This document shows positions 17,258 through 28,376 of a stretch of 35,372 nt of DNA, piece after piece; position 1 is the stretch's first letter, and each line of letters opens with the position of its first letter. Below the pieces are notes generated by a model that saw only the letters and a program-made list of their open reading frames with translations, did no database searches and was not told the DNA's origin. The stretch is from contig JAFQLP010000116.1 of assembly GCA_017414565.1 (NCBI GenBank), positions 1 to 35,372 on the forward strand, written 5' to 3'. The DNA comes from Lentisphaeria bacterium (GTDB taxonomy: Bacteria; Verrucomicrobiota; Lentisphaeria; Victivallales; Victivallaceae). A program made the position numbers and the translations under genes.

Positions 17258-17285
17258 TTGTAAATGTGCGGGGAAGGGCTATATT
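17258..17285 (+). promoter_or_regulatory. Predicted promoter for the 728-aa membrane protein
   Basis: A TTGTAA box (17258-17263), a 16-bp spacer and TATATT (17280-17285) lie about 75 bp before ATG 17364. They are the same boxes as those upstream of protein B. Confidence 0.5.
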
Positions 17286-17363
17286 ACTTTACTGTATGTC
17301 GTATTGAAATAGGGGACGGACGGCGTGCTGTATCGTCTTTTCTCTGCAAACAGGAATGTTTTT

Positions 17364-19550
17364 ATGACCAAACCCGCACATGACAAACTGACTTTTATCC
17401 GGATCGGCGGTGCCTGGCAGCCGGTCGTGACCGGATTCCATGATTTCCCTGCTCTGCTCAATCTCGATGCCGTCCATTGGGGCATGACAAGTATTGCCGT
17501 TGAGCAGCTCCGCACCGACAAAAATTTTCTGCGTTATCTCGACAGCGATGGCGATGGGAAAATCCGGGTGAGCGAGATCCGGGATGCCCTGTCATTCATG
17601 ATTTCTGTCTTCGCCGACGGTACCGGACTCGATCAGCGGAGCGATGTCCTGCATCTGCCGCATCTCAACCGGGATGATGCCGGTGGGGACAGGATCTTTG
17701 CCGCCGGCAAAGCGATCCTGCTTTCGCTCGGCAAGCCGGAGAGCAGTGATATTTCGCTGGCGGAACTGCTGGACGATGTGGCCAGCAAGAGCAGTGCGTC
17801 CTGCAATGGCGATGGCGTGATCTCCGCTTCCGGCGTTGATGACCCCGGCTTGGCTTCCCTGATCGAACTGATCATCCGTTATACCGGCGGCACTTCGGAT
17901 CTTTCGGGTGAAAACGGGGTCGACAGCGCGGCGATCGACCGGATCGAAAAACTTTACGAAGGCTGGTGCAGCTGGGCAAAACAGGATACCTTCAAGCCCG
18001 AAAAAGTGAAAATGTTTCAGGCGGCGGAGAAACTGGCCGATGCCCTCGATACCTATTTTCTGAATTCCGAGGCAATGGCGTTTCTGGCTGCCGATCCGGA
18101 CCGGCTCAAACCCTGCACCATTGCCGCAGATGTCTGTTCGTCGGACGGCGTCAGCGAGGCTCTGACCCGGTTGGTGATCGCCGCCCCGGATGCCGCCGGT
18201 GAACTGGATACGGCCGCCCGGGTGAATCCGCTGTATCGGGAGGAGCTGACGGCCCTGTTCGGGATGCCCGCATTTCAGGCGTATTTGAAAGGCGGCAAAC
18301 TGTCGGCTCCGGCATGGCGCACCCTGCGGACCGATATGAAAAAATATGCCGATTTCATGGCGACCTGTCCGGAAACGGTTTTCTCGGAAGACGATGCCGC
18401 CAGAATGGCCAAATCCGCCACCGCTGAACAACTGAAACGTTTGCGGAAACTGGTGGATGCCGATCTGGAAGTCGGCCGGGCGCGTGCCGCCGAGGATATG
18501 CTGCTGAAAGCGGTCCTGTATCAGCGTTATCTGCTTGAGTTCCTCAATAACTTCATCAACTTGAGCGAATTGTTCCGGACCGATGGCCATTGTATGCTCC
18601 AGAGCGGGACACTGGTGATGGATGCCCGGCGTTTTTCGCTGGTCGTGCCGGTCAGGAATCCGGCGGAACACCGCGCCATTGCCGCCTCCGGCAATATCTG
18701 TGTGGCGTATATTGAGATTTCCCGCCGCCAGACGGTGGAAAAATGCCAGTTGGCGGTGGCGATCACCAGCGGCAGTATGCGGAACCTGTTTGTCGGCAAA
18801 CGGGGGGTGTTTTTCAGTGCGGAAGGCGAAGAATACGATGCCCGGATCGTTCAGTTCCTCGATGCTCCGGTGTCGGTTTCCGATGCCCTGAAAGAACCGT
18901 TCTGCAAATTTGCCGGATTTTTCGGGAAACAGATGGACAAATTATTTTCCACCCGTGCCAATGATGCCCAGAAAGCGTTGAGCAACGATCTGTCCGGCGG
19001 CAAACTGCCGGTCGCTCCGGCCAACAATTCTTCGCTCAACGGCAGTATGCTGCTGATGGGCGGCGGGGTCGGTCTGGCCGCGCTGGGCAGTTCTCTGGCG
19101 TTTATCGTCAAATCGTTGCAAAATGTGTCGGTCTGGAGCGTTATCCTGGTTTTGCTGGGTATCCTGCTGGTCTTCGGCGGTCCCGGTGTAGTGGTGTCGC
19201 TGGTCCGGCTTTACCGGCGGAATCTTTCCCGCTTCTTTGAAGCATCCGGCTGCGCTTTGAACCGCAATCTGCGGATGTCGTTTGCTTTGGGCCGGGTCTT
19301 TACCTGTGAACCGGGGCGGCCGGCCGGAAGCCATTTGACCGTGCTGCCGCATCTGGAACTGGCCGAGGCAGCCGCCCGGTTCCGGTGGATCGCGCGGCTG
19401 ATACTGGTTCTGCTGATCGCTGCGGCCATCTGGGCCGGGGTGTGGTTTGTGCGCCGCCCGGCCAAAGCGGAATCCGCTCCGGCTCCGGTCCCGGAAAAGA
19501 CGGTCGAGGCTCCGGCTCCGGCTCCGACACCGGCCCCGGCGGTCAAGTGA
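17364..19550 (+). CDS. Large membrane protein of unknown function with an EF-hand loop
   Basis: Predicted product is 728 aa. ATG 17364 has only a moderate ribosome site (CAGGA); an upstream in-frame CTG/TTG start cannot be excluded. I do not recognise a family. Visible are a canonical 12-residue EF-hand loop DSDGDGKIRVSE at 60-71 and a weaker CNGDGVIS loop near 155. There is a long soluble alpha-helical region to about residue 570, then three hydrophobic segments near GGGVGLAALGSSLAFIV, VILVLLGILLVFGG and LILVLLIAAAIWAGVWF. The protein ends in a Pro-Ala-rich tail of about 25 residues, VPEKTVEAPAPAPTPAPAVK-like. No signal peptide is seen, so the large domain is probably cytoplasmic and anchored by the C-terminal helices. 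Calcium binding is suggested by the loop only. Confidence 0.75.
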   Translation: MTKPAHDKLTFIRIGGAWQPVVTGFHDFPALLNLDAVHWGMTSIAVEQLRTDKNFLRYLDSDGDGKIRVSEIRDALSFMISVFADGTGLDQRSDVLHLPHLNRDDAGGDRIFAAGKAILLSLGKPESSDISLAELLDDVASKSSASCNGDGVISASGVDDPGLASLIELIIRYTGGTSDLSGENGVDSAAIDRIEKLYEGWCSWAKQDTFKPEKVKMFQAAEKLADALDTYFLNSEAMAFLAADPDRLKPCTIAADVCSSDGVSEALTRLVIAAPDAAGELDTAARVNPLYREELTALFGMPAFQAYLKGGKLSAPAWRTLRTDMKKYADFMATCPETVFSEDDAARMAKSATAEQLKRLRKLVDADLEVGRARAAEDMLLKAVLYQRYLLEFLNNFINLSELFRTDGHCMLQSGTLVMDARRFSLVVPVRNPAEHRAIAASGNICVAYIEISRRQTVEKCQLAVAITSGSMRNLFVGKRGVFFSAEGEEYDARIVQFLDAPVSVSDALKEPFCKFAGFFGKQMDKLFSTRANDAQKALSNDLSGGKLPVAPANNSSLNGSMLLMGGGVGLAALGSSLAFIVKSLQNVSVWSVILVLLGILLVFGGPGVVVSLVRLYRRNLSRFFEASGCALNRNLRMSFALGRVFTCEPGRPAGSHLTVLPHLELAEAAARFRWIARLILVLLIAAAIWAGVWFVRRPAKAESAPAPVPEKTVEAPAPAPTPAPAVK

Positions 19551-19634: not shown

Positions 19635-21002
19635 ATGTCTTCCAGAAAATATCAGATGGATATGTGTCACGGACCATTGCTTGGTAAAATGGTCTGGTTC
19701 ACATTGCCGTTGATTCTGTCGAGCATTCTGCAGATGGCATTTCACGCTATCGATATGATCGTTATCGGTCATTTCGCCCCGCATGAATCGTTGGCGGCAG
19801 TCGGCTCTGTCGGTTCGATCAACAGCCTGATGGTCAATGTGTTCAGTGGTTTGAGCGTGGGGACCAATGTGCTGGTTGCCAGATATTTCGGGGCAAACGA
19901 TCCGAAGCGGATCCGGCATTGTGTCCATACTTCGATGGCACTGGCGTTGTTCGGCGGGATCGGGTTGCTGCTGCTGGGGCAGGTCATTGCCACGCCGCTG
20001 TTGCGGTTGGTGGGTACGCCGGACAATGTGATGAGCGAAGCCTCGATCTATTTGCGTATCCTTTTTCTGGCCATACCGTTTCTGCTCTTTTTCAATTTTG
20101 GTTATGCCGTGCTGCGGGCCGTCGGTGATACCATGCGCCCCATGTTCTTTTTGATCATTGCCGGGGCGGTGAATGTGGTGTTGAACCTCTTTTTTGTGCT
20201 GGTGTGCGGTATGCATGCCAGCGGGGTGGCTCTGGCAACATTGATCTCGCACGCGCTTTCCGCTCTGTTCATCTATTTTGCTCTGGCCCGGAACAATACA
20301 GCCATCCGGCTGATCTGGCAGTACATCCGGATCGATTGGCGGCAGTTCCGGGAAATTCTCAAGATCGGTCTGCCGGCAGGGGTGCAAAGTTCCTGTTATT
20401 CTGTCTCCAATATGCTGATCCAGGCCTCGATCAATACATTCGGTTCTCTGGCGATCGCCGGCAGTGCGGCCGCCGGTACGATCGAAGGCTTTGTCGGTAT
20501 CAGTTCCGGCGCATGTCATCAGGCGGCACTGGCATTTACTGCCCAGAATTACGGCGGAAAGCAGTTGAAGCGGATCAAACGCAGTATTTTTCTGGCGGCG
20601 GGACTTTCAGCGGCCTGCGCGATGGTCCTGGGATTCACCCTGCTGTTGTTTGATACTGAATTGTTGCAGATCGTCAGCAGTGACCCCGGTGTTATCGAAT
20701 GGGGATTGCGGCGGATGCTGGTCATGTTTACGACCGCCTGGATGATGTGTGTTATGGATTCGCTTTCCGGCAGTCTGCGCGGACTTGGCTATTCCATGAC
20801 TTCTACCGTATCCACTTTAGCTGGTGTCTGCGGCTTCCGGATCGTCTGGGTTCTCTTTGTGTTTCCGCTGCACCCCACATTTGAAATGCTTTTCAGTTCC
20901 TATCCGGTTTCCTGGATGATGGTTGCCGTATTCAATGCTTCCGCCTTGTGCTATATCTGGAAATACAAAATGATTCCTTTAAGCCGCTCCTGGCGCCCTT
21001 GA
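19635..21002 (+). CDS. MATE family efflux transporter
   Basis: Predicted product is 455 aa, the family norm, with about twelve hydrophobic segments in two homologous halves. Typical MATE features are LPLILSSILQMAFHAIDMIVIGHFAP in the first helix pair, the loop GTNVLVARYFGANDPKRI after helix 3 and AAGTIEGFVGISSGACHQAALAFTAQNYGGKQ in the second half. It probably exports cationic drugs or metabolites with sodium or proton influx. ATG 19635 is preceded by GTGAGG. It lies 84 bp after the unknown membrane protein and may be read from the same transcript. The coding sequence ends just before an abrupt fall in GC content. Confidence 0.9.
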   Translation: MSSRKYQMDMCHGPLLGKMVWFTLPLILSSILQMAFHAIDMIVIGHFAPHESLAAVGSVGSINSLMVNVFSGLSVGTNVLVARYFGANDPKRIRHCVHTSMALALFGGIGLLLLGQVIATPLLRLVGTPDNVMSEASIYLRILFLAIPFLLFFNFGYAVLRAVGDTMRPMFFLIIAGAVNVVLNLFFVLVCGMHASGVALATLISHALSALFIYFALARNNTAIRLIWQYIRIDWRQFREILKIGLPAGVQSSCYSVSNMLIQASINTFGSLAIAGSAAAGTIEGFVGISSGACHQAALAFTAQNYGGKQLKRIKRSIFLAAGLSAACAMVLGFTLLLFDTELLQIVSSDPGVIEWGLRRMLVMFTTAWMMCVMDSLSGSLRGLGYSMTSTVSTLAGVCGFRIVWVLFVFPLHPTFEMLFSSYPVSWMMVAVFNASALCYIWKYKMIPLSRSWRP

Positions 21003-21147
21003 TCGGGGCCGCGTGGCGGCTTCAGAATGTCGCGGCGGCTTCGCTCGCCTTGATCGGGGCTGTGCGACGGGCGAGTGTCGGGCCGAAAATAAAAAGACAG
21101 ATTGTGCAAATGCTTGTAAAATGGCACTGTTTCATGGAGAATTAAGA
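20998..21147 (+). repeat. Direct repeat at the edge of an AT-rich island
   Basis: CTTGATCGGGGC occurs at 20998-21009 and again at 21049-21060, the first copy overlapping the MATE stop. After about 21080 the base composition becomes much richer in A and T and stays so to about 21800. No gene is supported between the MATE stop and 21148. The repeat may mark a duplication or an insertion edge, but no integrase or inverted ends are present. Confidence 0.4.
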
Positions 21148-21249
21148 ATGTTTGATGTAGATCATAGAGAGAAGCAAGGTCCTATCAAAGGACCTCTCGT
21201 TTTAATTCAAACAGGCCCTATTGATGAAAAGCAAGGGCCAATCAAATAG
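21148..21249 (+). CDS. Possible 33-residue peptide with internal repeat
   Basis: A short frame runs from ATG 21148 to TAG 21247-21249, with GGAGA about 7 nt upstream. It contains EKQGPIK twice, 19 codons apart, and stops exactly after the second copy. Beyond the stop the same frame continues the repeat pattern (PVILIQT matching PLVLIQT) to a second stop before the lipoprotein gene. It may be a real small peptide or a decayed remnant of a longer repetitive gene. No family is recognised. Confidence 0.35.
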   Translation: MFDVDHREKQGPIKGPLVLIQTGPIDEKQGPIK

Positions 21250-21282
21250 CCTGTCATTTTAATTCAAACGAATCATATTTAT
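21169..21282 (+). repeat. 57-bp in-frame tandem repeat, two copies
   Basis: Units 21169-21225 and 21226-21282 share AAGCAAGG-CC-ATCAAA and the block TTTTAATTCAAAC. The period is 57 bp, exactly 19 codons, so the repeat keeps the reading frame. In copy 2 the GGA codon is replaced by TAG. Confidence 0.8.
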
Positions 21283-21297
21283 TTATAAAAAGTGGTT

Positions 21298-21732
21298 ATG
21301 AAAATTTTACTGCCATTTGCTGTAATTGTTGTCATTTTTATGAGTTCATGCAATGAATCAAAACATGATACTGCAAAACAAATTATTCATTCTATACAAA
21401 ACGCGACAAATAAAATGAGACAAACTGGCGAATCGGAATTTGAAATAAAAATACCGGCGAATTCACAATATAAAGTTATTTATTTTTACCCTTATACAAG
21501 TTTCGACAACATAAGAGTTGAGAATTCAATCAAAAAGAAGTTGGAGAGGATTGCATTTTCAATGGAGAAGCCATTTTTTGTTGTTGTTGAAGATGACAAT
21601 TTGTTGGAATATTGTAATGTGGATTTTGCATTAGATCCTTCAGGAGAAATGCCCATGGTGTGGTCTGCGCATCATGGTATCATATGCATCAAAATTCAAA
21701 AAAAGCAAGATGGAGCGTATGTCTTATATTAA
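21298..21732 (+). CDS. Small lipoprotein of unknown function in AT-rich island
   Basis: Predicted product is 144 aa. ATG 21298 is preferred over a GTG two codons upstream; the ribosome site is weak. The N-terminus is a lipoprotein signal, MKILLPFAVIVVIFMSSC, with a plausible lipobox Cys at 18. The mature part is small and mixed alpha/beta, rich in Lys, Ile and Asn, with no family I recognise. Base and codon use (AAA, ATT, TTT) differ sharply from every neighbour, which suggests recent transfer. Genes of this kind are sometimes immunity or inhibitor lipoproteins, but no toxin partner is visible, so this is only a thought. Confidence 0.6.
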   Translation: MKILLPFAVIVVIFMSSCNESKHDTAKQIIHSIQNATNKMRQTGESEFEIKIPANSQYKVIYFYPYTSFDNIRVENSIKKKLERIAFSMEKPFFVVVEDDNLLEYCNVDFALDPSGEMPMVWSAHHGIICIKIQKKQDGAYVLY

Positions 21733-21832
21733 CTTCATTTTTGGGGCACCTTATTTTTAGTTCCTTGAACTACTATGTCCATCGGTTGAGGATATAGCGA
21801 TCCATTCCCATTCCATTTTATCGACAAAAAAT

Positions 21833-22025
21833 CAGGAGGCTCGGCAGAGTATCGTTTTCAAAAAAATCGCCCCTCCGCTCTGCTTTGCCTCCTGTTCCCC
21901 CTCCGCTTATATCAGCGCGTTTATCTGGCCGCGAAAGCGGCGGATAAACGCGCTCATTCAGAAGTTTTTGTAAAGGGAGAGCGCGAGAGGGGAGAAACTT
22001 TTTTCAAAAAGTTTTCCCCTCTCGC
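21833..22025. repeat. Block of three successive large stem-loops
   Basis: Stem-loop 1 is 21833-21894. CAGGAGGC and GCAGAG on the left pair perfectly with CTCTGC and GCCTCCTG on the right, with matched 3-nt internal loops. Stem-loop 2 is 21914-21954: a 12-bp perfect stem (AGCGCGTTTATC), then a 5-bp GCCGC/GCGGC stem closed by GAAA. Stem-loop 3 is 21983-22025: a stem of about 20 bp starting GCGAGAGGGG, with one bulged A and T/A runs near the loop. Stem-loop 3 begins 11 bp after the stop of protein D on the minus strand and could end its transcript. The rest of 21733-22036 holds only a 6-bp hairpin at 21758-21772 and no gene. Confidence 0.85.
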
Positions 22026-24694: not shown

Positions 24695-24818
24695 CTCCGG
24701 ATGCGGAAAAAGATGCCCGGAAAACAATAAATCGAGGGGGAACTCCGTTTAACAGGGTGTTGTTTTGAGCGACAGTGCCGCCGGGAGTGGCGGCGGAAAT
24801 GACAGGGAGCGGGTGACG

Positions 24819-26276
24819 ATGATGAGATCGTGGCAGAAAAGAACAGTTGCGCTGATCGCGACCGGAATGACCGGCGTGTTCGCCGGTGGATGTCTGGATT
24901 ATCAGGCCCCGGCGGTGCCGGTGCGGGCCGAAAGTTTCAGCGGTGTGTCCGAAGATGAACGGGTCAGATTGCCGGAAGATTTGAGCGAATTGACCCTCGA
25001 AGAGGCCCAGCGGATCGCGTTGGCCAACAATCCTGATTTTTTGAGTCAGGGGTTTGCCATCGCCGCCGCCAAAGCGCGCTATTACCAGTGTTACTCCGGG
25101 TACGCCCCCACGGTGAATGCCGGAATGTCCGTCAGCCAGAGTTTCCGGCAGATGTATTCGGGGCATCATGTGAACAAGAGCCGTTCCCAGTCGGAAAATT
25201 ATACGCCGTCGATCTCCGGTCAGTGGCTGATCTTTGACTGTCTGGAACGGGAAATGAACCTGCTCGCCGCCAAATACAAATTGCGGCAGAGCCGGGAATT
25301 GGAGGAAGATGCCCGCCGTCTGCTGATGCAGGCTGTGGCTTACGCTTACAACGATATCCTGCTGGCCAAAGCACAACAGCAGATCGCCATTGCCGATATC
25401 GAATATTATCAGAAAATGCTCGATGATGCCGAGCGCAAGCAGAAAGCCGGTACCATCAAACCCAGCGATGTGCTGGATTTCCGCATTTCGCTCAAAAACG
25501 GTCAGTACGCGTTGCGGGCCAGAGAATATGCCGTACTGACCGGGAAATTCGTGCTGGCGGCATATCTCGGTTTGACCGACGGCACACTGCCCGACCGGAT
25601 CATATTTCCGGAACTCGCTTTCCCGGAGGAGGAATATCTGCCGGATGTGACCGTTTATCTGGATCAGGCGTTGGCATCCCGGCCCGACCTGCGCGCCTGC
25701 CGCGATGCGTTGAAAGCCAGTCAGTACAGTTATTGGGCCACGCTCGGCAGTTTCGGGCCCAGCATCAGTGCCTCTTATCAGTTGACACTGGACAACAGCC
25801 ACAATGTCCAGCATGTTGCCAATGCCGCCGATTCCCACAGCACCTCCACCAGCGGCGGGTTCTCTTACGGTATTTCGGCCAACTGGAACATTTTCAACGG
25901 CTTTTATGACTATTTCGCCACGCAGGCCGCCATGGCCGCGGTGGCCCAGAGCGATTATCAGTTGGCTTCGCAATGGCTGACGGTGGTCAGCGATGTCCGC
26001 ACCGCATACGCCAATTATCAACTGAATGTGGATCAGGCCAAGGCTTCCCGCGATATTCTGCAACTGACCCGGCGCAACCGGGAACTGGTGGAAAATGAAT
26101 ACAACGCCGGTAAAGCCGAGATCACCCGGCTCAATGAGGCTCAACTCAATCTGATCGCGGCCCAGAACAATCTGGCCATGTCCGTTATCAATATTTCCAA
26201 CGCCCGGGCCCAGCTCGCCGCCGCCGTGTATGCTTCGGCCGCCAATGTCGATGAACCGGTTCCGGCCGGCCGGTAA
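24819..26276 (+). CDS. TolC/NodT-type outer membrane efflux lipoprotein
   Basis: Predicted product is 485 aa. The frame is open to a TTG at 24765, but ATG 24819 (or the adjacent ATG 24822) has AGGGAG at proper spacing and begins a lipoprotein signal ending in FAGGC. The body shows two outer-membrane-factor repeats with long coiled-coil helices. The first begins LTLEEAQRIALANNPDF; the second includes VYLDQALASRPDLRACRDALKASQY and ends near YNAGKAEITRLNEAQLNLIAAQNNL. It forms the trimeric outer-membrane channel of the tripartite exporter encoded by the next three genes. This supports an outer membrane in the organism. Confidence 0.88.
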   Translation: MMRSWQKRTVALIATGMTGVFAGGCLDYQAPAVPVRAESFSGVSEDERVRLPEDLSELTLEEAQRIALANNPDFLSQGFAIAAAKARYYQCYSGYAPTVNAGMSVSQSFRQMYSGHHVNKSRSQSENYTPSISGQWLIFDCLEREMNLLAAKYKLRQSRELEEDARRLLMQAVAYAYNDILLAKAQQQIAIADIEYYQKMLDDAERKQKAGTIKPSDVLDFRISLKNGQYALRAREYAVLTGKFVLAAYLGLTDGTLPDRIIFPELAFPEEEYLPDVTVYLDQALASRPDLRACRDALKASQYSYWATLGSFGPSISASYQLTLDNSHNVQHVANAADSHSTSTSGGFSYGISANWNIFNGFYDYFATQAAMAAVAQSDYQLASQWLTVVSDVRTAYANYQLNVDQAKASRDILQLTRRNRELVENEYNAGKAEITRLNEAQLNLIAAQNNLAMSVINISNARAQLAAAVYASAANVDEPVPAGR

Positions 26277-26316
26277 CGGCAGGTCATTGTCAACCAAAGA
26301 TGAGGATTTACCAATA

Positions 26317-27660
26317 ATGAAAAAAATCAAAAAATTGTTGAAGATCACCGTGATCGCCGTTGTTATCGCCGCTCTCGGCTGCGGCGGCTGGGTGGTGTAC
26401 CGTTCCTATCAGGAAGAAGATGCCGTGGTCAGTTTCAAGACCGAGCGCATCAACCGGCAGACGATCATGCGGACCATTTCCGCCACCGGTACGGTCGAGC
26501 CGGAAGAACTGGTCAACGTGGGTGCCCAGGTCAGCGGCAAGATCATGAGTTTCGGCAAGGATACCGAAGGCCGTACCATTGATTACGGTTCCAAGATCAC
26601 CACCGGAATGGTGTTGGCGCAGATCGACGATGTGACCTACAAAGCCGAATTGCAGCAGTGTCTGGCCTCCCGGCAGCAGGCCGAAGCCGCCATCCAGAGT
26701 GCCCGGGCCGCCATCCAGCAGGCCGAAGCCAAACAGCAGTTGGCACAGCGGGAATGGGAACGCGCCCAGCAGCTTTTCCCGCTCGGTTCCATGACCAAGA
26801 GCGATTACGACAACTATGAATCGGGTATCCGGATCGCCAATGCCGATATTTCGGTGGCCAAAGCCCAGTTGGCACAGGCCGAAGCACAGCTTTCCAGTGC
26901 CGAGGCCGCGTTGGTGAAGGCCCGCCGCAATATGGAATATTGTGTGATCACTTCGCCGGTTGACGGGATCGTGATCGACCGGCGCGTCAGCATCGGTCAG
27001 ACGGTGGTTTCCAGCCAGACGGCTTCGAGCATTTTCCTGGTGGCAACGGATTTCCGGAAAATGCAGGTGTGGGTGTCGGTCAACGAAGCGGATATCGGCA
27101 GCATCCACAAAGGTATGCCGGTGGTTTTCTCGGTGGATGCGTTCCCCGGGGTGGAATTCCGGGGCGAAGTTTTCCGGGTGCGGCTCAATGCCACGCTGTC
27201 TTCCAATGTTGTTACCTACATCGTGGAGGTCAATACCGATAATGCCGACGGCAAATTGCTGCCGTATCTGACCGCCAATGTCAAATTCGTCCGCGAAAGC
27301 CGCGCCGATGTGCTTTCGATCTCCAACGCCGCTTTGCGGTTCCGGCCCGCTCCGGAATGGATCGATCCGGCCTTTGAACGCCCCGAATCCAAAGATGTGG
27401 TGTGGGTGCGTACCGATAACAATCTGCTGCGTCCGGTCGCCGTCAAAGCCGGGCTCAACAACGGTCTCCGCGGCGAGATCGTGGAGAGCGAACTCAAAGA
27501 GGGCGACGAAGTCGTGACCGGTGCCGCGTATGTGAGCGCGGCCGCATCGGTGGATTCCGGCGAGGCCAAGAATCCGTTTATGCCCAATCTGCCAAAGGCT
27601 CCGGCCCGCGGCAGTGCCGGTCAGCGTCAGCGCGCCGAAAAACGGCAGGCAGCCCAGTAA
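26317..27660 (+). CDS. Periplasmic adaptor (HlyD/MacA-type membrane fusion protein)
   Basis: Predicted product is 447 aa. ATG 26317 lies 40 bp after the channel gene, with TGAGGA upstream. An N-terminal membrane anchor (about residues 8-28) is followed by the first half of a lipoyl domain (VEPEELVNVGAQVSGKI), then a coiled-coil hairpin of about 110 residues rich in Gln, Ala and Glu. Then come the second lipoyl half (VITSPVDGIVIDRRVSIGQTV), a beta-barrel domain and a membrane-proximal domain (VVTGAAYVSA). This is the MacA-like order. It bridges the MacB-type ABC transporter in the inner membrane and the TolC-like channel. The C-terminal 30 residues are Lys/Arg/Gln-rich and probably disordered. 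Confidence 0.9.
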   Translation: MKKIKKLLKITVIAVVIAALGCGGWVVYRSYQEEDAVVSFKTERINRQTIMRTISATGTVEPEELVNVGAQVSGKIMSFGKDTEGRTIDYGSKITTGMVLAQIDDVTYKAELQQCLASRQQAEAAIQSARAAIQQAEAKQQLAQREWERAQQLFPLGSMTKSDYDNYESGIRIANADISVAKAQLAQAEAQLSSAEAALVKARRNMEYCVITSPVDGIVIDRRVSIGQTVVSSQTASSIFLVATDFRKMQVWVSVNEADIGSIHKGMPVVFSVDAFPGVEFRGEVFRVRLNATLSSNVVTYIVEVNTDNADGKLLPYLTANVKFVRESRADVLSISNAALRFRPAPEWIDPAFERPESKDVVWVRTDNNLLRPVAVKAGLNNGLRGEIVESELKEGDEVVTGAAYVSAAASVDSGEAKNPFMPNLPKAPARGSAGQRQRAEKRQAAQ

Positions 27661-27674
27661 GCCGGAGCGGGATC

Positions 27675-28376
27675 ATGGCGATCATTGAACTGCAGGATAT
27701 CCGCAAAACCTATTTTCTGGGCGAGATCGATGTGCCGGTGCTCAAAGGTATCACCATGTCGATCCAGGCCGGGGAATATGTGGCTTTGATGGGGGCATCC
27801 GGTTCCGGTAAGAGTACCCTGATGAATATTCTCGGCTGTCTGGACCGGCCCACTTCCGGGGATTACGTTTTCGATGGCGAAGAAGTGGGACGGGCATCCG
27901 GCGACCGGCGCGCCCTGATCCGCAACCGCAAAATCGGATTCGTTTTCCAGAGTTTCAACCTGCTGCCCCGTACCAGCGCGCTCGAAAATGTCATCATGCC
28001 GCTGGGCTATACCGCCACCGGGCTTTCCCACGCAGAATGCCGCCGCCGCGGTCTGGCCGCGCTGGAACAGGTGGGGCTTTCGGAGCGGGCGCATCATCAC
28101 CCCTCGCAATTGTCGGGCGGTCAGCAGCAGCGGGTGGCCATTGCCCGGGCGTTGATCAACCGGCCGCCGGTGCTGTTCGCCGACGAACCGACCGGGAACC
28201 TCGATACCAAAACCAGTCTTGAGGTCATGCAGATGTTCAGCGAACTCAATGCCCAGGGGATCACCGTGATCCTGGTGACGCATTCCGCGGAAATCGCCGA
28301 GTATGCCAAGCGGACCATTTTTCTGAAAGACGGTCTGATCGTGGATGACCGCCTCAACAAAGGAGGTGCCGCATGA
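27675..28376 (+). CDS. MacB/LolD-type ABC transporter ATP-binding protein
   Basis: Predicted product is 233 aa. All ABC ATPase motifs are present: Walker A GASGSGKST (40-48), a Q-loop in IGFVFQSFNLLPRTSA, signature LSGGQQQR, Walker B VLFADEPTGNLD and the switch histidine in LVTHS. The sequence is of the MacB/LolD/FtsE mechanotransmission class. In E. coli MacB the ATPase and permease are one chain; here they are split into two overlapping genes (ATGA at 28373-28376). It drives conformational pumping of substrate through the MacA-like adaptor and TolC-like channel. Confidence 0.92.
   Translation: MAIIELQDIRKTYFLGEIDVPVLKGITMSIQAGEYVALMGASGSGKSTLMNILGCLDRPTSGDYVFDGEEVGRASGDRRALIRNRKIGFVFQSFNLLPRTSALENVIMPLGYTATGLSHAECRRRGLAALEQVGLSERAHHHPSQLSGGQQQRVAIARALINRPPVLFADEPTGNLDTKTSLEVMQMFSELNAQGITVILVTHSAEIAEYAKRTIFLKDGLIVDDRLNKGGAA

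Follow-up and report, generated by a model that had tools for sequence, protein, structure and literature searches.

Sequence comparison points to a real, unnamed and widespread family of bacterial proteins in which a metal-type EF-hand loop, itself real as judged from the alignments, is kept by most members. The same comparisons bring out a conserved core, conserved membrane segments, loss of the loop in a few lineages and a gene linkage in one genus. The representative studied here is encoded in the window, by which we mean the whole stretch of 35,372 nucleotides that was analysed (C60:1-35372), in a host draft genome of 2.01 Mb and 183 contigs where the protein is present as one copy. Its coding sequence, delimited by the open frame and by homologues, occupies 17364..19550 (+), from an ATG at 17364 to 19550, and specifies 728 amino acids; an in-frame GTG at 17325 is an alternative start that would yield 741. 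A promoter-like site (17258..17285, +; 9/12 matches) lies in the gap between the lipocalin gene and the EF-hand gene, and shuffled sequence contains about as many such sites as the region does. Most counts below refer to 57 distinct rows, i.e., 65 aligned rows, window protein included, minus eight near-copies that group with L009 and L010. L011, whose gene is cut off by the contig end, and L012, with a broken reading frame, were left out before counting.

The protein had originally been predicted to fit no known family, and this holds: no Pfam, NCBIfam or PADLOC match rises above cut-off. Pfam matches of the protein are confined to EF-hand and holin models, all under the curated cut-offs, the best EF-hand match being to EF-hand_6 with 17.8 bits against a cut-off of 25 (18.5 bits for the family consensus). 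NCBIfam gives no match at E <= 0.1 and PADLOC none at E <= 0.01. When 44 members are scanned singly against Pfam, weak EF-hand matches are the common theme (EF-hand_6 in 12/44 at E <= 0.1), and non-EF-hand families are each found in at most two members. Against NCBIfam, the same 44 members produce weak matches to three families, each by one member; one of these is a calcium-binding effector family. Solved EF-hand proteins are also matched weakly, with E-values of 0.39 for the single protein, 0.0051 for the profile and 0.016 for the consensus. A search of the window's own genome with EF-hand_5 returned nothing at E <= 0.001, and two of the 14 control genomes were positive. The protein resembles the EF-hand superfamily (Pfam EF-hand_1/5/6/7) in having one full-ligand loop and weak HMM matches where they would be expected, but departs from it in that these matches are sub-cut-off, only one loop is canonical, the other EF-like elements appear degenerate, and the long core and membrane part belong to no known family. 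Titles and abstract openings in the literature on EF-hand proteins of Verrucomicrobia/Verrucomicrobiota, Lentisphaerae and Planctomycetes contain no description of the family.

Twelve related loci were recognised by sequence, in genomes that include Lentisphaeria, Lentisphaerae and Victivallales and of which several come from the rumen. With the single protein as query, matches are found in 37/61 near genomes and in 207 of the 387 genomes sampled from the phylum, which we take to be the Verrucomicrobiota of GTDB; both counts include the host's own genome. A 44-member profile finds matches in 208/387 (156/310 among the better genomes), two candidates per genome being scored in the phylum searches, and the sole genome gained, G092, has a 46-position match with a stop. 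Because the profile adds so little over the single-protein query, most absences are probably real. Within the near-genome sample the protein was found in 0/5 f3, 0/2 f5 and 0/3 f8 genomes. One match per genome is the rule (183 of the 208 positive genomes), and several of the other cases are pieces of one frame. Viral contigs yielded no relative. Plasmids, searched with two protein queries, gave one and the same family fragment, L050 (1664-2710, Aeromonas salmonicida plasmid NZ_CP060033.1), which shares 43 % identity with the L051 protein across some 144 residues and passes into other sequence close to a tet(Y) gene. Relatives must thus be present beyond the phylum or have moved there by transfer.

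The EF-hand loop is a 12-residue element with D, N or S at positions 1, 3 and 5, Gly at position 6, a hydrophobic residue at position 8 and Glu or Asp at position 12. As predicted, residues 60-71 of the 728-aa protein, DSDGDGKIRVSE (17541..17576, +), satisfy this strict pattern, and the strict and permissive patterns each match the protein once, at residue 60. The permissive version accepts D, N or S at positions 1 and 3, any of D, N, S, G, T or E at position 5, a hydrophobic residue at position 8 and D or E at position 12; intact loops were called with this looser version, so that L041, L072 and similar rows qualify. Shuffling the protein 20,000 times produced a strict loop in just 13 cases. 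Among the 57 distinct rows, a strict loop occurs in 35, always at the 60-71 position, and the permissive loop is kept in 51. The original prediction had named homologues without the loop residues as evidence that would count against it: the other six rows (L009, L010, L032, L038, L039 and L061) are of this kind.

Conservation within the loop (57 rows, weighted) follows the ligands rather closely. Percentiles are 95, 89, 84, 83, 92 and 92 for columns 60, 62, 64, 65, 67 and 71, and 24 and 38 for columns 61 and 63; the alternation of ligand and non-ligand is imperfect, because column 68 reaches percentile 90 as well without providing a side-chain ligand. As far as alignments can tell, this comes close to the pattern expected from phylum-wide selection on metal ligands. 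In a tree of 68 rows (seven near-copies dropped; 759 columns, the 12 loop columns included; quick search, SH-aLRT support) 61 rows keep the loop and seven are without it, which amounts to four changes, each nested among loop-keeping rows. We read these changes as probable losses in four lineages that retained the protein. A chance origin of the loop was considered and is ruled out by conservation, the tree, and the shuffle and row counts. Together with the weak Pfam EF-hand matches, these are the observations on which the loop assignment is based, and a helix follows the loop in both of the low-confidence AlphaFold2 models described below.

A weaker second loop, which had also been proposed, is doubtful. 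Residues 146-157, SCNGDGVISASG (17799..17834, +), fail even the permissive pattern and carry an acid at neither position 1 nor position 12, where the rows most often show Pro (15/57) and Ala (32/57), respectively. The region nevertheless contains a conserved, EF-like NGDG motif, traced by column counts, pattern and a weak consensus match: G149, D150 and G151 are present in 62/65, 56/65 and 65/65 rows, the GDG ranks among the best-kept motifs of the family, and the family consensus, which reads LNGDGVITPD at residues 148-157, matches EF-hand_5 weakly (E 0.034, below cut-off). Column counts and percentiles single out a further EF-loop-like motif, D-x-S-G-x-x-G-[IV] at residues 179-190 (17898..17933, +), whose position 12 has no acid. 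Both motifs are best described as putative degenerate EF-hand elements. As to the pairing usual of EF-hands, the pattern finds no second canonical loop, the EF-like elements at 146-157 and 179-190 are the candidates at hand, and the models are of low confidence. Three short homologues of family f39, L079, L080 and L081 (frames of 505, 599 and 570 aa; the L079 frame used stops early, stops having been flagged by the search), are without residues 106-188 approximately and hence without both EF-like motifs; they retain the strict first loop.

Beyond these motifs, the protein had been described as helical over some 400 residues. Helices do extend over a long stretch in the low-confidence model (residues about 188-397; 17925..18554, +), but strands appear between 418 and 499, so that about half of the description stands (mean pLDDT 51.7). 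These strands belong to a conserved core at residues about 396-513 (18549..18902, +), delimited by conservation, with G415, H436, Y449, G478, P502 and P512 as near-invariant residues. Searched on its own, the core consensus matches no Pfam family at E <= 1 and a single solved structure at E 0.21. The full-length AlphaFold2 model has a mean pLDDT of 51.7 and a pTM of 0.33. A separate N-terminal model has a mean pLDDT of 49.1, and most of the N-terminal elements of the full-length model recur in it; both were built on 11-row alignments (the window and ten related loci). Given the low pLDDT and the empty Foldseek search with the full-length model (no match at E <= 0.001), no fold is claimed for the protein.

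Weighted column scores over the 57 rows place the best-kept stretches of the family protein at 381-520 and 561-640, and G151, N288, G415, P512, P607 and N633 are invariant across 44 members. That the core and the membrane part are better conserved than most of the N-terminal half is one of three observations in line with the EF-hand being a static structural metal site, which would hold the N-terminal domain without any sensing while the core and the membrane pair act alone; the others are the presence of only one canonical loop and the four losses of the loop while the rest of the protein stayed. The ligand pattern, however, spans the sampled phylum and the shortest forms, which would seem needless for a dispensable brace. 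We regard a static site as a serious possibility, of less than even likelihood but as likely as the explanation preferred below.

The C-terminal part was predicted to contain three membrane segments, and hydropathy does reveal three hydrophobic stretches, the first two close together and the third further on. Segment 1 is glycine-rich (residues 562-583; 19047..19112, +), and segment 2 (residues 590-613; 19131..19202, +; about 588-614 by hydropathy) contains P607, the proline that is invariant in 44 members; both are also marked by conservation. Segment 3 (residues 673-697; 19380..19454, +; about 671-698 by hydropathy) varies in the family when rows are compared and is found in 50/57 rows. Alignment conservation continues beyond segment 2 in a stretch at residues 615-653 (K/R-L-x-x-R ... 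E-A-x-G-W-A-x-N; 19206..19322, +). The predicted Pro-Ala tail is confirmed by composition, with nine Pro and nine Ala among the final 30 residues (699-728; 19458..19547, +), and row comparison indicates that it varies across the family.

The conserved glycine-rich segment 1 and the invariant proline in segment 2 also invite the idea of a channel or pore formed by oligomers of the helix pair and gated by metal on the cytoplasmic domain. Residues 560-620 bear a weak likeness to Phage_holin_3_6 (PF07332; E 0.013, below cut-off), which is seen in 2/44 members at E <= 0.1. The match is nevertheless far from the cut-off (16 bits vs 28.4), the holin model covers 116 positions as compared with 728 residues, and the family consensus does no better (E 0.11). 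Moreover, only two segments are general and no channel family is matched, so a gated pore is rather improbable.

The side of the membrane on which the EF-hand lies can be approached from hydropathy and charge. In no row of the 57 does an N-terminal stretch of 15 residues exceed the hydropathy threshold applied. The simplest model is then one with two cytoplasmic parts, the N-terminal domain and the residues following segment 2, and a periplasmic tail. Lys and Arg are densest after segment 2, where the 57 rows have on average 7.3 in 38 columns (0.19 per column), compared with 1.0 in eight columns between segments 1 and 2 (0.12 per column) and 1.7 in 17 columns before segment 1 (0.10 per column). 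Since Lys/Arg before segment 1 is no denser than in the presumed outside loop, the charge rule is only half borne out. The cytoplasmic placement of the original prediction is favoured by the N-terminal hydropathy and by the charge after segment 2, but the bias is modest and there is none before segment 1; a cytoplasmic EF-hand loop is, on these sequence properties, plausible.

The opposite orientation would place the N-terminus outside the inner membrane, where the EF-hand would read periplasmic calcium, as proposed for EfhP of Pseudomonas aeruginosa. EfhP is listed with two EF-hands, is predicted to be periplasmic and is a proposed mediator of calcium responses, and a periplasmic or secreted location is given for several bacterial EF-hand proteins (PMC9132961). 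Such precedents, and the lack of Lys/Arg enrichment just before segment 1, are compatible with a periplasmic N-terminus; the highest Lys/Arg density after segment 2 and the complete lack of N-terminal hydrophobic stretches over the threshold argue against it, and we consider it quite improbable. By description, the only basis of the comparison, EfhP and the 728-aa protein are both bacterial EF-hand proteins, but in the latter a single canonical loop sits in a domain that is probably cytoplasmic, and the C-terminal part is membrane-embedded; as to an export signal of the EfhP type, an N-terminal stretch over the hydropathy threshold occurs in 0/57 rows. YtfA of Bacillus subtilis is listed as a membrane protein with one EF-hand whose function concerns sporulation (PMC9132961); set beside the 728-aa protein by description only, it is alike in the first two respects and differs in the listed function.

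Gene context was examined at several distances. The window has a lipocalin-domain gene on one side of the EF-hand gene and a MATE transporter gene on the other, an order that was discarded as conserved context because it is absent from ten close relatives. When the 15 other window genes were compared with the loci of these ten relatives, only the 27675-28376 gene was matched, in 5/10 and with 26-32 % identity, and the matches fall in the MsbA-like gene of L096, L098, L099, L102 and L104. This gene resembles ABC exporter ATPases and follows TolC-like and MacA/RND-adaptor-like genes; the genes at 24765-28376 are probably a tripartite efflux set. Elsewhere in the window, a 189-aa frame at 12320-12889 matches the GH109 C-terminal domain (187 positions) only over positions 109-186 and overlaps another ORF, possibly being a truncated or frameshifted gene, and the GC content falls to 0.465 at 20001-22000, the other 2-kb steps ranging from 0.54 to 0.61.

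A phylum-wide shared operon was likewise rejected: single linkage of 30 loci found common neighbours confined to the closely related L002-L013 or to few loci, a longer antisense frame masking the family gene in five loci. L053, L058, L060 and L063 do share neighbours, but these do not adjoin the family gene. In distant families, 17/20 neighbouring genes have Pfam matches, and these are heterogeneous, ranging from seryl-tRNA synthetase to catalase.

One related genus, g15, has a more regular arrangement. In 12/19 of its loci (L096, L099, L102, L104, L106-L112 and L120) the family gene lies 1-161 bases upstream of a co-oriented DegT aminotransferase gene, followed by MsbA-like and MurC-like genes, the MsbA-like one being missing in L108. 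The gene names come from the L099 annotation, and "MsbA-like" and "MurC-like" are the safer forms because the cut-offs of the MsbA and MurC models themselves are not reached. Compared with the protein of L099, which is among the 12, the family proteins of the linked loci show 38-82 % identity, and a gene order kept at such identities suggests a working link in g15. The same genes are nearby but rearranged in L098, the 13th of the 19 loci. The remaining six have no DegT/MsbA-like/MurC-like set within the stretch read, and three of these carry divergent family copies (28-29 % identical). Upstream of the family gene, L096 (5994-7759; kinase by NCBIfam, below cut-off) and L098 (2747-4376) carry a McsB-type arginine kinase gene together with a small adjacent gene.

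As a rule for the whole family this linkage was dismissed, since it occurs in 0/11 loci of other genera of the order (two of them with short downstream sequence, 389 bases in L125 and 868 in L101). Five of nine genomes (G137, G217, G024, G033 and G006) have the DegT, MsbA-like and MurC genes together on one contig and the family gene on another, and the window genome has DegT next to MsbA-like on C10 and MurC on C172. The g15 linkage is a hint, no more, of an envelope role of the family protein. Against such a role stand the limitation of the linkage to one genus and the fact that DegT and MsbA-like genes adjoin elsewhere without the family gene, window genome included.

Our best explanation, to be taken as tentative and held at less than even confidence, is an inner-membrane protein working at the cell envelope, in which a cytoplasmic EF-hand domain that binds Ca2+ or Mg2+ shapes the membrane-proximal part. 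The C-terminal glycine-rich helix pair would anchor the protein in the inner membrane, the third helix and the tail being presumably lineage-specific additions. In the cytoplasm, the N-terminal domain would hold the one metal-binding EF-hand and the degenerate EF-like elements, and the metal, which we infer to be Ca2+, or Mg2+ at rest, would set the shape of this domain. The change in shape may then be relayed by the helical stretch and strand-rich core to the membrane-proximal part and alter its activity. The output of such conformational switching would most likely concern the assembly or upkeep of the cell envelope. That four lineages lost the loop and kept the protein speaks against this explanation.

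A roughly 700-residue protein that occurs in about half of the sampled phylum genomes, with a selected metal site and no matching model in the three protein-family libraries searched, is a good target for deletion and structural work, and the lineages without the loop provide natural comparisons. In its broadest and admittedly unlikely form, the proposal would amount to phylum-wide intracellular Ca2+/Mg2+ sensing, in which a single cytoplasmic EF-hand tunes envelope assembly (lipid export, cell-wall precursor synthesis) via an undescribed membrane-embedded core. If the loop does sense metal in the cell, the family would bear on calcium or magnesium as an internal signal in these bacteria.
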